Shown here: positions 2,429 to 40,016 of the stretch, piece after piece | Layout: each line of letters starts with the position of its first letter | How positions within the stretch are numbered: the stretch's first letter is position 1 | NCBI GenBank assembly: GCA_018303205.1 | Contig: JAGVYP010000034.1 | Span: forward strand, 1 to 42,871 | Direction of reading: 5' to 3' | Length of the DNA: 42,871 nucleotides | From: Candidatus Woesearchaeota archaeon | Lineage (GTDB): Archaea; Nanobdellota; Nanobdellia; Woesearchaeales; JAGWAF01 | Notes under the pieces: generated by a model | Seen by the model: the letters and a program-made list of their open reading frames with translations, nothing else | Database searches by the model: none | Told to the model about the DNA's origin: nothing | Program-made: the position numbers and the translations under genes

Positions 2429-2579
2429 AGGTCACCGTCCTCAGGTCAAAGAAATGCACTATAATCACGATCATCAAGGTCATCACCTTGGAGTACAACC
2501 AGAAAATTGAGCGATTCATGCAGCTCAATTTTCGCGAAATCTGCGATCAACGAAGCAGTAGATCTCCGTGATGACCTTC
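2427..2579 (-). repeat. Family 1 structured element, copy A1
   Basis: Read on the minus strand, this 153-nt copy has an 11-bp outer stem (AAGGTCATCAC at 2578-2568, partner at 2486-2476) and GGAG pairing with CTCC. It also has the hairpin CTGC-loop-GCAG with GATC in its loop, and a 10-bp stem AAAATTGAGC/GCTCAATTTT closed by the conserved loop TGCATGAATC. A 48-nt tail then ends GACCTGAGGACGGTGACCTTC-like. It differs from copy A2 at only 4 of 153 positions, in inverted orientation 9 kb away. It starts inside the uL10 stop codon and separates rpl10 from rpl12. Confidence 0.85.
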
Positions 2580-4253: not shown

Positions 4254-4354
4254 GCAACATTGCGGAGATACACTGCTCCGTTGATCGCAGATAACGCGTC
4301 GAACACCCTGCATGAATCGGGTGTTCTCCTGATCCTACTCCAAGGCAATGTTGC
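4254..4354 (+). repeat. Family 1 structured element, copy B
   Basis: Outer stem GCAACATTGC (4254-4263) pairs with GCAATGTTGC (4345-4354). Next come GGAG/CTCC, hairpin CTGC-TCCGTTGATC-GCAG, then ACGCGTC, stem GAACACCC/GGGTGTTC around loop TGCATGAATC, and TCCTGATCCTA. All stems are fully paired and differ in sequence from those of copies A, C and E, while the unpaired core is the same. It lies in the interval between eS24 and eS27a. Confidence 0.85.
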
Positions 4355-9380: not shown

Positions 9381-9430
9381 ATTCTCATTTCATAAACTGG
9401 GTATTTAAATGTTACGAAAAAAAGGGAAAT

Positions 9431-9584
9431 TATGAAACCCTCCTAAATTTTCAATCTTTTGATGTTGTTGTGTAGATTAGCTACTCCTTCGATCGTAGAT
9501 TTTGCGTCGAATGACCTGCATGAATCGGTCATTCTCCTGATCTTACTACAAGGCAACAACATCAAAAACGAATAGGGTTTCATA
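9431..9584 (+). repeat. Family 1 structured element, copy C, with an extra outer stem
   Basis: An outermost stem TATGAAACCCT (9431-9441) pairs with AGGGTTTCATA (9574-9584). Inside it, GATGTTGTTG (9461-9470) pairs with CAACAACATC (9554-9563). Then GTAG pairs with CTAC, hairpin CTAC-TCCTTCGATC-GTAG follows, and stem GAATGACC/GGTCATTC closes loop TGCATGAATC. Relative to copy B, both GGAG/CTCC and CTGC/GCAG have changed with compensating partners. It lies just upstream of the minus-strand surface gene and next to a family 2 element. Confidence 0.85.
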
Positions 9585-9598
9585 TTATCCGAAAAAAA

Positions 9599-9764
9599 GG
9601 GTGTGTCCCAAATCTCACTATCGTTCGGGTTAGCAGCTTCTCGTGTAGCTCTTCTTTTTGTTGATAAGTGCCATTTCCCGTCTGGAGCATCCCCTTTGTC
9701 ACTCTTTATCTTTCTTGTTTACACACTCGACCTTATGCTGCTAACCGACATTTGGGACACACCC
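9599..9764 (-). repeat. Family 2 structured element, copy 1
   Basis: Terminal stem GGGTGTGTCCC (9599-9609) pairs with GGGACACACCC (9754-9764). The inner stem GGGTTAGCAGC pairs with GCTGCTAACC. Between the terminal and inner stems lie the asymmetric strands ATCTCACTATCGTTC and GACAT. The inside reads, on the minus strand, ATAAGGTCGAG, then TAAACAAGAAAGATAAAGAG and GTGACAAAGGGG. It is an inverted copy of the element on the other side of nurA and ends 49 nt before the nurA start. Confidence 0.8.
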
Positions 9765-9813
9765 GAAAAAAAAACAGAGAAACACTTTTATAGAGCTTTG
9801 AAATCATCAGAAT

Positions 9814-10791
9814 ATGGAAGAACAAACTTTAAGAAGGATCTTTCAAGAACTCTGCGAACGCCTGCAAACAAAAGGAAAAGAACTTCTTTTTCCAGACCAG
9901 AGCAGGAAAGCTGTTCTTGACCAAACCTTATTTCAAAAAATACCACCAAAAAAGACACAACAAAGCATAACTTTTATTGACGCTGGAAACGCAGAACTGG
10001 TTTCTAGTCCTTCCTTTTCTTTGCAGATGATACGGCTCTGCGCAACAACCTATGAAGGAAGAGAAGCAAAAGAAAACAAAGCAAAAGAATTCTTTGTGCT
10101 CATTGTCCTTCAAGAAAAAGAAAACACTTTTTGTTATACCATTTCCACGTTTGGAGCTGACTATCAGTTTCCCTCTTATCATGCCTTTGACCCTTTACTC
10201 ACGCAAGGAAAACATAGGGCAACACCCCAAGTGATAACAGATCATGTAAGAACCCTCAGTGAACTTTTCTTTATGCAAGAACTTCAAGGAGAAATCCTTA
10301 TAAGAGATGGTGACCTTGACTTGATTCATGAAGAAGAAAAAAGAATGCTAAAAGCATTGATAGCAACTAAAAAAATCGGTGGACTAGCAAAGACCAATAG
10401 CGTAATTACAAACACGGGAAACAGTGCTGCACCCGTACTGCAGCATCTTGCTCCGAAAGGAACCTGGTGGTATCCACTCGGAAAAGATGAGAGGGGTATT
10501 TTCTCCTTCTTTGTAAAACTCCATCCGCTGAGTGAATACATCTTTCGCTTGGATCTGCACGAAGGGCATCCTGAAGAGATACTCTCCTCACTGGAAGAAA
10601 TTTCTAAGGATCCCCTCTTTCTAGGATATCCCTATGCTTTACTTGCAGCTGATCGTTATGCAAGAATAAGCAATCAGGAAAAAGAGATGATGATCATGAA
10701 ATTTTTAACCTTAGCAGGAAAAGATGCCCTCATCCTTAAACCTTATCTGAGAACACAGGATGCACATGCACTTCTTGATAAGGTTAGCTAG
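9814..10791 (+). CDS. nurA: NurA-family nuclease
   Basis: NurA is a 5'-3' nuclease that works with the HerA ATPase in end resection for archaeal recombination. Conserved acidic sites are present: D56 in TFIDAGNAEL (usually DGS), D165/D167 in ILIRDGDLDL, and D280 in GYPYALLAADRYARIS, plus GLAKT near 190. The length of 325 is normal. A TATA box (CTTTTATAG, about 9785-9793) lies about 25 nt before the ATG. No herA, mre11 or rad50 is next to it, which is unusual since nurA normally sits in that operon. Instead it is bracketed by inverted copies of a structured repeat, which hints that gene and repeats may have moved as a unit. Confidence 0.85.
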   Translation: MEEQTLRRIFQELCERLQTKGKELLFPDQSRKAVLDQTLFQKIPPKKTQQSITFIDAGNAELVSSPSFSLQMIRLCATTYEGREAKENKAKEFFVLIVLQEKENTFCYTISTFGADYQFPSYHAFDPLLTQGKHRATPQVITDHVRTLSELFFMQELQGEILIRDGDLDLIHEEEKRMLKALIATKKIGGLAKTNSVITNTGNSAAPVLQHLAPKGTWWYPLGKDERGIFSFFVKLHPLSEYIFRLDLHEGHPEEILSSLEEISKDPLFLGYPYALLAADRYARISNQEKEMMIMKFLTLAGKDALILKPYLRTQDAHALLDKVS

Positions 10792-10859
10792 GCAAAACTT
10801 TGTTTTAAAATTTAATGTATACTTTTTAATGTATAAAAAGGAATTGAAATGCGGAAAAG

Positions 10860-11066
10860 CAGGCTCTGTCCTAAATGTCGGTTAGCAGCATAAGGTCGAG
10901 CTTTCTAGACAAAGACGATAAATAGTGACAAGGGGGAAGTCCCTCAGATTTTTAAGAAAAATCTGGTAAAAACAGGTGCGGCATAAAGCCACACGAAAAA
11001 GTGGGCTTGAGCGAAGCGAAACCCAGCTGCTAACCCGAACGATAGTGAGATTTAGGACAGAGCCTG
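10860..11066 (+). repeat. Family 2 structured element, copy 2
   Basis: Terminal stem CAGGCTCTGTCC (10860-10871) pairs with GGACAGAGCCTG (11055-11066); its sequence differs from copy 1 but is fully compensated. Inner stem GGTTAGCAGC/GCTGCTAACC is the same. The core ATAAGGTCGAG, then GATAAATAGTGACAAGGGG, matches copy 1. Copy 2 also has extra hairpins: CAGATTTTT/AAAAATCTG around AAG, and GGC/GCC within GTGCGGC-ATAAA-GCCACAC. It is 207 nt against 166 nt in copy 1. Confidence 0.8.
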
Positions 11067-11462: not shown

Positions 11463-11592
11463 AACTTATTTTTTTATCCGTTTCTTTTGATATATTTTTT
11501 TCTTTTCTATTTTTTCAATTTGTTTATCTTCTATTTTTAATCCATTTTATTATTTTTTTATTTTCAAAATAGTTTATTTTTCTCTTCTTCTT
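11463..11592. terminator. T-rich convergent 3' region
   Basis: This stretch after the plus-strand membrane protein gene is a long pyrimidine-rich run with many T tracts. That matches archaeal intrinsic termination, which needs only oligo-U. No coding frame is seen. Confidence 0.5.
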
Positions 11593-11745
11593 GAAGGTCA
11601 TCACGGTGATCTACTGCTTCGTTGATCGCAGATTTCGCGAAAATTGAGCTGCATGAATCACTCAATTTTCTGGTTGTACTCCAAGGTGATGACCTTGATG
11701 ATCGTGATTATAGTGCATTTCTTTGACCTGAGGACAGTGACCTTT
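11593..11745 (+). repeat. Family 1 structured element, copy A2
   Basis: This is a 153-nt copy nearly identical to A1 (4 differences) in the opposite orientation. The differences include GGAG to GGTG, which breaks one pair of the conserved short stem, and a change at the closing pair of the TGCATGAATC hairpin. About 10 nt further on, TACTCCAAGG (about 11756-11765) repeats the 3' core of the element and looks like a remnant of an older copy. It lies between convergent genes. Confidence 0.85.
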
Positions 11746-28513: not shown

Positions 28514-28658
28514 AGCCTATCTCACTAGGTGAGAATCATTGCGTAGACTTGCTGCTCCTTTGATCGCAGATACTACCAAAATCGAGCTGCACCAATCGCT
28601 CGATTTTGTGATCTTGCTACAAGGCAATGATTCTCACGCACCAACTGGGATAGGTTCT
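28512..28658 (+). repeat. Family 1 structured element, copy E, with extra outer stem
   Basis: Outer stem AGAGCCTATC (28512-28521) pairs with GATAGGTTCT (28649-28658). The next stem GTGAGAATCATTGC pairs fully with GCAATGATTCTCAC. Then GTAG/CTAC, hairpin CTGC-TCCTTTGATC-GCAG, and AAATCGAGC/GCTCGATTT around TGCACCAATC. This is the only copy with CC in place of TG in that loop. It starts inside the stop codon of the upstream gene. Confidence 0.85.
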
Positions 28659-29889: not shown

Positions 29890-30090
29890 TTAAATCGGAT
29901 TACGGAGATTTGCTGCTCCGCGGGAAACGAGTTTCTCGCGGCTCAAAAATCTTCGATTTTTTGAGCGTCCCTCTCAGATTTTGCGAAAATTGAGCTGCAT
30001 GCACTTAAAAATCTTTGATTTTTAGTGCCTTCCGTTTCACTCCAGGAATCGCTCAATTTTCTGGTCTTGCTCCAAGGCAATCCTCTTTAA
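29890..30090 (+). repeat. Family 1 structured element, copy F, with hairpin insertions
   Basis: Outer pairing TTAAA-TC-GGATT with AATCC-TC-TTTAA, then GGAG/CTCC and the stem AAAATTGAGC/GCTCAATTTT. The CTGC hairpin loop is expanded by about 50 nt containing two hairpins (GGGAAAC-GAG-GTTTC-like, and CTCAAAAATC-TTCG-ATTTTTTGAG). The TGCATG|AATC loop is split by about 45 nt including CACTTAAAAATC/GATTTTTAGTG. The right end overlaps the aRF1 stop codon. Confidence 0.8.
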
Positions 30091-36563: not shown

Positions 36564-36686
36564 GCTGTACCGTCCTCAGGTCGAGCGATTTGTCTGATAT
36601 GATAGACCAAGCTGGAGGGGTTGCTCCCTTCGGGACCTCAGCGATACATAGACGTAAAGAATTACTTCGCTCGAAGATGGTACAGC
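36564..36686 (-). repeat. Structured element D, related to the tail of family 1 copy A
   Basis: Terminal stem GCTGTACC (36564-36571) pairs with GGTACAGC (36679-36686), and CGAGCG (about 36582-36587) pairs with CGCTCG (36669-36674). Inside are hairpins GTCT-GATATGAT-AGAC, GCTG-GAGG...CCTC-AGC and TCCC-TTCG-GGGA, giving a multibranched fold of 123 nt. On the minus strand it ends GACCTGAGGACGG before the outer stem, the same 13 nt found at the tail of copies A1/A2 (A2 with one change). CTCGACCT is also shared with family 2. It lies 99 nt before the DRG gene start. Confidence 0.65.
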
Positions 36687-38180: not shown

Positions 38181-38616
38181 GTCAGATATCAACACCTGGA
38201 ATAAGAAAATTCAAGAAAATTATAGCATAGAAGACTTTCTTGACAAAAAAGAAAAAATAGAAATAGAAGATGAAAAATTTATAGTCATCAATAATGAAAA
38301 AGCATTCTTCTTGGAAAATGAAAAAATAATCCCTACTTTAAAATTTCTTCAAAAAAAAAATATTTTGAAAAAAGTAACTGTTGACATGGGAGCTGTTAAA
38401 TTCGTTGTCAATGGAGCAGACATCATGAGGCCGGGCATTGTTTTACTTGAAGAACGTATTATGAAAGATTCCTATGTTGTTATTGTTGACGAGAAAAATA
38501 AAAAACCATTATCTGTTGGAAAAATGCTCTTTACAGGAGAAGAAGTTTTATCTATGAAAACGGGAAAAGTCATTAAGAATATACACTGGATAGGAGATGA
38601 CTTATGGAAGAGTTAA
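38158..38616 (+). CDS. PUA-domain RNA-binding protein, MCT-1/COG2016-like
   Basis: The 152-residue protein has an N-terminal pre-PUA domain (residues 1-70) and a PUA domain from about 72 (VDMGAVKFVVNGADIMRPGI, then VGKMLFTGEEVLSM). This layout is that of the archaeal homologue of MCT-1/Tma20, linked to translation initiation or recycling. The start is TTG at 38158, chosen because GAGGTGG precedes it. The last 163 nt recur at 39843-40015. The copy at 38158 is the intact one. Confidence 0.85.
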   Translation: MARKTLSKSDINTWNKKIQENYSIEDFLDKKEKIEIEDEKFIVINNEKAFFLENEKIIPTLKFLQKKNILKKVTVDMGAVKFVVNGADIMRPGIVLLEERIMKDSYVVIVDEKNKKPLSVGKMLFTGEEVLSMKTGKVIKNIHWIGDDLWKS

Positions 38617-39632
38617 CGATTTATTTTTATCTCAGCGTATTTTTTCCCTTGTACACGAGCTATAGCTTCATTAATAGATGTATGACCTAGTCCAGCAACA
38701 ATAGCTAATGGAGTAAACGGTTGTGCATATTCCATCCATGCTCTGCTTCTTCCCTCTATAACAATAGTGTCAAATTCTTGTAAAACATGAGTGATAAAAC
38801 CATTACCCCTATAATGAGATGCAGGATGTTTTGCGATGCCTTCCCTATATGCTATGTTCTGAAGAAATTCAGCACTACTAGCAAAAGAACGAAATAGAGC
38901 TTGAAGAGAAGCATCGCTTGTTTTAGATGCGTAACTGTCCATATGCTCTACAAAAGCATATTTATTTTCAAAAAAATAATGAAGAAGACGATTTACCATG
39001 ATCTCGGAGGTATCTTGAAACAATGCTGGATCTTCTAAACCAATAACTTCAACTCCTTTTTCTCGGAGAGGTTTCACAAAGTTAAATTGATTCCCTACTT
39101 GCCTGTTAGAGTAAGCAAAACTATAAGCATTAAGTAACAAAAAAGTTATTGCATCTATATTTTCACATAGTCCCTTTACTTCTTCTTGAGGTATAGCTCC
39201 TTTTAATCCAAGTATTTTTATCGTTTGCATATTTTTTTGAGGATCAAAAAAGGAAGTTATCTCCTCCCATAATGCTTCTCTTGCCGCTAGATGTGCACGA
39301 TAAGGTGGTTCTAATGCAGCATACACTTTATCGTCAATAACACCTTGCGGAAGACCTTCCAAACCAACCCTCTCTACTCCTGAAAGTTCTACTACACGAA
39401 CTATATCTTCCGTAGGTGTCTTGTAATGATCGACTCCAAAGAATAGATAATCGAATTCTTCCTTTTTTTGATCTTCTGTTGATAATAATAGACGACCTCC
39501 TATCAATGCAAGTAATGTCGTTCCTCCTGCAATGCCCAGTGCTGTTCTTCGAGAAATGAGCTTAGAAGGAAGAGCCTGCACAGGAGTCCTTTTTTCCTCC
39601 CCTCTTGTTTGTTTCTTTTTGGTCATCAGCAT
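38613..39632 (-). CDS. Predicted Tat-exported protein, function unknown
   Basis: The 339-residue protein starts with a basic stretch and SRRTALGIAGGTTLLALIGG (about 27-46), a Tat-type signal with twin arginines, then an outer domain of about 280 residues. Segments such as VERVGLEGLPQG and LAIVAGLGHTSINEA recall TraB/ChaN-like folds, but I would not assign the family. Only one gene with a Tat-like signal is seen here; no tat genes are in view. It lies between two copies of the PUA 3' end, inside a repeated cassette. Confidence 0.6.
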   Translation of the reverse strand: MLMTKKKQTRGEEKRTPVQALPSKLISRRTALGIAGGTTLLALIGGRLLLSTEDQKKEEFDYLFFGVDHYKTPTEDIVRVVELSGVERVGLEGLPQGVIDDKVYAALEPPYRAHLAAREALWEEITSFFDPQKNMQTIKILGLKGAIPQEEVKGLCENIDAITFLLLNAYSFAYSNRQVGNQFNFVKPLREKGVEVIGLEDPALFQDTSEIMVNRLLHYFFENKYAFVEHMDSYASKTSDASLQALFRSFASSAEFLQNIAYREGIAKHPASHYRGNGFITHVLQEFDTIVIEGRSRAWMEYAQPFTPLAIVAGLGHTSINEAIARVQGKKYAEIKINR

Positions 39633-39842: not shown

Positions 39843-40016
39843 TTACTTGAAGAACGTATTATGAAAGATTCGTATGTTGTTATTGTTGACGAGAAAAATA
39901 AAAAACCATTATCTGTTGGAAAAATGCTCTTTACAGGAGAAGAAGTTTCACTTATGAAAACAGGAAAAGTCATTAAGAATATACACTGGATAGGAGATGA
40001 CTTATGGAAGAGTTAG
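39843..40016 (+). pseudogene. Duplicated 3' end of the PUA gene
   Basis: This segment repeats 38453-38615 at an offset of 1,390 nt and encodes LLEERIMKDSYVVIVDEKNK to the end and a TAG stop. Differences from the intact gene are few: TCC to TCG and ACG to ACA (silent), and LS to SL near the end. It has no start codon of its own. The near-silent differences suggest the copy came from a functional gene, perhaps of a related strain. Confidence 0.85.

Follow-up and report, generated by a model that had tools for sequence, protein, structure and literature searches.

Two related copies flank nurA

In a Woesearchaeota genome, two structured repeats flank the gene nurA in inverted orientation. This raises the question of whether they move the gene as a composite mobile unit, act as a pair of structured RNAs, or stand beside it by coincidence. 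We analyzed the whole stretch of DNA around them (42,871 nucleotides; hereafter, the window) together with the remainder of its genome (G000; 1.42 Mb in 74 contigs) and related archaea. We find that the two copies, A and B, are very probably separate insertions of a tiny non-coding MITE (a non-autonomous transposon) moved by IS5-type transposases, and that its interior is a folded module of a widespread family.

The two copies have one common core and unlike paired outer stems. Each folds more stably than its dinucleotide shuffles (z of -5.3 for copy A and -9.1 for copy B), with 0 of 200 shuffles equaling the native value in either case. The sequence GGTTAGCAGCATAAGGTCGAG occurs exactly twice in the window, against a chance expectation of 0. 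Between the outer stems, GGGTGTGTCCC and GGCTCTGTCCT, there are three differences, all of them compensated. In copy B, an extra hairpin module stands in place of the 3' half of the core tip. These results bear out what the first-pass annotation had described: two related structured copies around nurA, terminal stems that differ with compensation, and no gene but nurA between them. The annotation had overlooked the 9-bp duplications, the MITE directly upstream of copy A, and the third core copy. The exact limits of both copies, defined here from target duplications, and the neighboring features are as follows.

9415-9423: left target duplication of the upstream MITE, CGAAAAAAA
9424-9589: upstream MITE, a member of the other repeat family in the window (core GATCG..CTGCATGAATC), ends GGGAAATTATGAAACCCT / AGGGTTTCATATTATC
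9590-9598: left target duplication of copy A, CGAAAAAAA; also the right duplication of the upstream MITE
9599-9763, minus strand: MITE copy A (from fold and duplications)
9599-9613, partner 9750-9763, minus strand: terminal inverted repeat of copy A, GGGTGTGTCCCAAAT
9628-9746, minus strand: structured core of copy A, with P1 (GGTTAGCAGC/GCTGCTAACC), P2, P3 and a three-strand tip (R1, 133 bits)
9764-9772: right target duplication of copy A, CGAAAAAAA
9814-10791, plus strand: nurA, 325 aa (PF09376, 22.5 bits against a cut-off of 21)
10853-10861: left target duplication of copy B, GGAAAAGCA
10862-11064, plus strand: MITE copy B (from fold and duplications)
10862-10876, partner 11050-11064, plus strand: terminal inverted repeat of copy B, GGCTCTGTCCTAAAT
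10880-11035, plus strand: core of copy B (R1, 39 bits)
10945-11025, plus strand: hairpin module of copy B, CTCAGATTTTT..GAAACCC, found again, in both orientations, within other repeats of the genome
11065-11073: right target duplication of copy B, TGAAAAGCA (8/9 match)
36565-36685, plus strand: third copy of the core within the window, P1 CTGTACCGTC, class 2 (R1, 60 bits), at which no IS5-type ends were seen

Two different MITEs thus lie head to tail at 9415-9772, with the target word CGAAAAAAA present three times; the second insertion therefore used the duplication left by the first. The family of the upstream element is itself structured, again with differing paired stems, and recurs across the window (2480-2574, 4258-4350, 9457-9567, 11589-11701, 28536-28630, and 29972-30077).

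nurA is a resident gene between two independent insertions

The arrangement around nurA resembles a composite transposon: one gene has a copy on either side of it, the two being inverted, and the 41-nt outer arms are 93% matched (9598-9638 against 11025-11065; 92% for 9726-9764 against 10862-10900). The first-pass annotation had raised the possibility that nurA and both elements form one composite mobile unit, a reading that we consider highly improbable. The end types of the two elements differ, and we saw no common duplication around the whole block. Copies A and B arrived separately, because each has its own, different 9-bp duplication. Furthermore, in two relatives from the same family (G002 and G003), nurA is followed by the same gene, for a small membrane protein, and the locus is free of core elements; such relatives, with the gene in place and the elements absent, are what the annotation had named as evidence against its proposal. 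On the separate duplications and these empty sites, we reject a composite nurA transposon.

nurA is a resident gene, with its gene order preserved in relatives. The match in G002 extends to the pilin-like gene upstream. With the insertions subtracted, the intergenic gaps in our genome are 84 and 99 bp, and those in G002 are 91 and 59 bp. As far as the read flanks show, nurA also lies apart from herA-mre11-rad50 in both relatives. Two ordinary MITE insertions thus came to lie around nurA by coincidence.

The elements have transposon ends and target duplications

About 15-20 copies are present in the genome. Complete elements are 99-276 bp long; a transposase gene would not fit, and none is found inside. 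Paired terminal inverted repeats of about 15 nt form both ends. The first-pass annotation had suggested looking for target duplications, and we find direct 9-bp repeats at the edges of all 11 complete copies (8-9 of 9 bp at the stated limits). Eight of the 11 are perfect at 9 bp and copy B matches at 8/9, while the duplications of copy A (CGAAAAAAA) and C4 (TTTTTCTTA) are perfect with the right end placed one base shorter. As a control, cross-paired flanks from different copies reach a maximum of 7/9. If the elements are mobile, strains without copy A or copy B are expected to carry a single CGAAAAAAA or GAAAAGCA, respectively.

The terminal stems fall into discrete sets. One, GGCTCTGTCCTAAA, marks nine MITE sites as well as the termini of an IS, and another, GGGTGTGTCCCAAA, marks five sites; a reversed control pattern of the end sets gives zero matches in the genome. 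The annotation had held that variable terminal stems argue against simple transposon ends. This does not stand as worded, as a given stem type does not change among the several copies that have it and is flanked by duplications. It does capture that, across the superfamily (about 51 end 10-mers), ends vary beyond those of an ordinary transposon.

IS5-family elements of the same genome share three of these end sets

Three of the MITE end sets, including that of copy B, are also found on three IS5-family elements of the genome. The terminal repeat of copy B is the end of an IS present in three collapsed copies: six contig ends (C18, C19, C23, C29, C59, and C64) carry the two ends of this IS, with termini GGCTCTGTCCTAA, and its flanks join pairwise by perfect 9-bp duplications (GGAAAGAGC, ATTCGGTTA, and TGGGCAATC). 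The assembly therefore breaks at a three-copy IS, and by these duplications C18-C23, C29-C19, and C64-C59 are adjacent. Homology links the right end of the collapsed IS to the beginning of a transposase remnant in another genome (G032). Full-length relatives belong to the IS5 family, IS5_2 (NF033579, E = 3.7e-44; PF01609, E = 1.9e-19), and have ends such as GGCTCTGTTCAAAA with a 9-bp duplication. From the right-end homology to the remnant and from the relatives, we infer that the collapsed IS, the interior of which is unassembled, is probably an IS5-family element. An initial assignment to the IS6 family, based on terminal bases, was replaced by IS5 after the transposase search.

The other two IS5-family genes are assembled. 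One, on C1, has ends GGCTCTGTAGAAAA, a type also found on core copies at C62 and C14. The second belongs to a complete element (C66:14233) with ends GGCTAATATGAAACCCT, the type carried by the MITE directly upstream of copy A (9424-9589). No element with the GGGTGTG end of copy A was found in the genome. Judging from these shared ends, resident IS5-family (DDE) transposases would move the MITEs in trans.

A covarying core is widespread in one archaeal order

Cores from the genome that carry different ends can be aligned, and their inner stem, two more helices and tip covary. The annotation had proposed a covariance search, and a model of 119 positions built from these cores has matches in 69 of 241 genomes from the order and in 56 of its 170 genera. 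Up to at least 15 core copies occur per genome, and outside the family the strongest matches reach E values near 1e-16. Sampling across the whole phylum gave 54 matching genomes, every one of them from this order. The exact tip pattern matches at least 94 stretches among GTDB genome contigs. The 80 matches listed all come from MAGs of archaea, with titles that nearly always read Woesearchaeota, Nanoarchaeota or "archaeon" (one reads Thaumarchaeota), and no bacterial genome is among them. The exact core pattern has 0 matches in viral contigs, so we set aside viral carriage.

Among 99 distinct core sequences, 94.5% of cells are paired, double changes occur in 24 of 26 pairs, and covariation scores 0.611, compared with no more than 0.115 when the alignment is slid, figures that overstate independence because alignments were fitted to the model and same-genome copies are related. 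Loop nucleotides are also conserved (GACAARRGGG..CGGRRAADGTC). A known Rfam RNA family was considered and rejected: at the gathering score, Rfam 15 yields 0 matches for the window, and a permissive search of 10 loci returns only two flanking tRNAs and weak unrelated matches. We found no paper on DPANN MITEs or on this core fold in the literature searched, and the core family in Woesearchaeota-type archaea is apparently undescribed.

The core tip consists of three strands that change together. In the 68 distinct tips, the partners of the pyrimidine strand are the downstream purines (m2-d4 in 67/68, m3-d3 in 67/68, and m4-d2 in 64/68). The upstream purines mirror their downstream counterparts (U1=d4 in 66/68, U2=d3 in 67/68, and the third position in 66/68), and the strands switch jointly between A.U-A and G.C-G. 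This pattern would fit an antiparallel purine-motif triple or, alternatively, two mutually exclusive hairpins. An ordinary apical hairpin (P4), formed by the first purine strand and the pyrimidine strand, is a poorer fit, with U1-m4 pairing in 45/68 against 67/68 for m2-d4.

Transposon ends are interchangeable around the core

Prokaryotic MITEs are usually viewed as IS elements that have lost internal sequence and whose interiors are dispensable. In this family, it is the interior that is conserved and the ends that change, so that the question of who serves whom becomes testable. Sufficient flank is available for 122 copies, of which 67 have paired ends where expected, about 18 nt outside the inner stem. 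These 67 have 51 distinct first ten-mers, some of which differ only by end placement. Duplications matching at 8-9 of 9 positions flank 33 of the 67, over many genera, compared with 0.2% when right flanks are swapped. A small hairpin, CGA-GC..GC-GAG, lies in the 3' bulge between the inner stem and the end, where by eye it recurs with compensation.

A second class of cores has the inner stem CGxxACCGTC and ends GTAATACTTCAGC or GTATTTGTTTAGCT, unrelated to the IS5-type ends. In a few copies examined by eye, these are flanked by 8-bp duplications (TCAAAAAC twice, and AAAAATTG); cores with such ends and 8-bp duplications lie at L095 1501-1790 and L185 764-879. The second-class ends point to a putative second transposase.

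This element family is out of the ordinary, with a constant covarying core and changing transposon ends. We think it probable that the folded module is selected for its fold, read by a protein or through its own chemistry, and that it outlives its carriers by gaining new transposon ends. More tentatively, with the balance still against it, we propose that the folded module with its purine base-triple tip may be the true unit of selection. It would survive across the archaeal order by exchanging IS5-type (9-bp) and second, unrelated (8-bp) ends for those of resident transposases, possibly as a single-stranded DNA hairpin.

Folded DNA, RNA, or no function

The first-pass annotation had also suggested that the copies are a pair of structured, ncRNA-like elements. 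The structured part of this claim holds, with core helices that covary across 56 genera; the core may act either as RNA or as folded DNA. Base pairing and gene context bear on the choice. In the paired cells of P1-P3, G.U makes up 2.2%, with 61 G.U against 33 A.C, while tRNA stems of the same loci have 12 G.U in 137 (8.8%) and 0 A.C, a comparison that covers only 15 tRNAs and is confounded by the neutral decay of dead copies. Copies between tandem genes are split 26 to 26 by orientation. Copies are enriched between divergent genes (32, compared with 9 between convergent genes). Given the even split between tandem genes, we discard a cis-acting role in untranslated regions; the apparent neighbor bias is only this divergent-gene enrichment. 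Few wobbles and no orientation bias lean toward a role as folded DNA, or toward a strand-neutral process.

That the core is a trans-acting structured RNA (a ribozyme, or a regulatory or protein-binding RNA) hitch-hiking in MITEs is possible but rather doubtful. Strong covariation with conserved loop nucleotides, the many copies over 56 genera, and base-triple-like covariation of the tip would all suit it. An RNA would not be expected to have so few G.U pairs with A.C nearly as frequent, nor to lack an orientation preference between tandem genes and often sit between divergent ones, and the core has no Rfam match in the window or the 10 loci. We find it unlikely, and less likely than an RNA, that the core has no function of its own. 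Template switching in replication would then copy one arm to the other and keep the foldback paired as an old MITE lineage spread, which agrees with the nearly pure Watson-Crick pairing, the strand-symmetric mismatches, and the foldback structure of the whole element. However, positions left unpaired in the tip and loops show conservation across genera, and the same core is found within unrelated end types. The purine strand outside the duplex (U1 and U2) also tracks the paired strands in 66-67 of 68 tips; arm-to-arm copying does not predict this tracking, which thus counts against a functionless core. On balance, we slightly favor reading the module as a single-stranded DNA hairpin exposed in replication, and not as a transcript.

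Relation to known elements

Folded-DNA recombination sites such as the attC of integrons have a conserved structure with little sequence conservation. The cores are similar in that structure is kept and sequence is little conserved, as would be expected of a site that evolves as folded DNA. By eye, the RYYYAAC/GTTRRRY boxes that an integron integrase recognizes were not seen at the arms, and movement here is by IS5-type ends with duplications.

The end types GGCTCTGTCC, GGCTCTGTAG, and GGCTAATATG, together with 8-9-bp duplications, match complete or collapsed IS5-family elements (NF033579, PF01609) of the same genome and order. Unlike IS5 elements, the nurA-flanking copies are without a transposase gene, and the match extends no further than about 15 terminal bases on either side. 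A review of prokaryotic and archaeal MITEs gives archaeal examples from Sulfolobus, Halobacterium, and Haloquadratum and does not mention DPANN archaea (PMC10969869). The MITEs it covers resemble ours in being short, non-coding, AT-rich and intergenic, with terminal repeats, duplications, stem-loop interiors, and presumed movement by resident IS elements. They differ from ours, in which a covarying interior fold is common to many genera and the ends vary.

The core family is abundant in Woesearchaeota-type archaea and offers a tractable folded element in an uncultured lineage. It would also help annotation, as such repeats break assemblies.

Two further repeat features were observed. Hairpin modules (CAGATTTTT..AAAAATCTGGTAAAAAC and GTGGGCTTGAGCGAAGCGAAACCCAC) are common to otherwise unlike repeat families, in either orientation (window 10945-11025; L035, L036, L037, L038, and L040). 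This sharing between different families suggests that the modules are nested mobile pieces. Elsewhere in the window, a 173-nt direct repeat (38443-38615 and 39843-40015; 97% identity) brackets a gene at 38613-39632.
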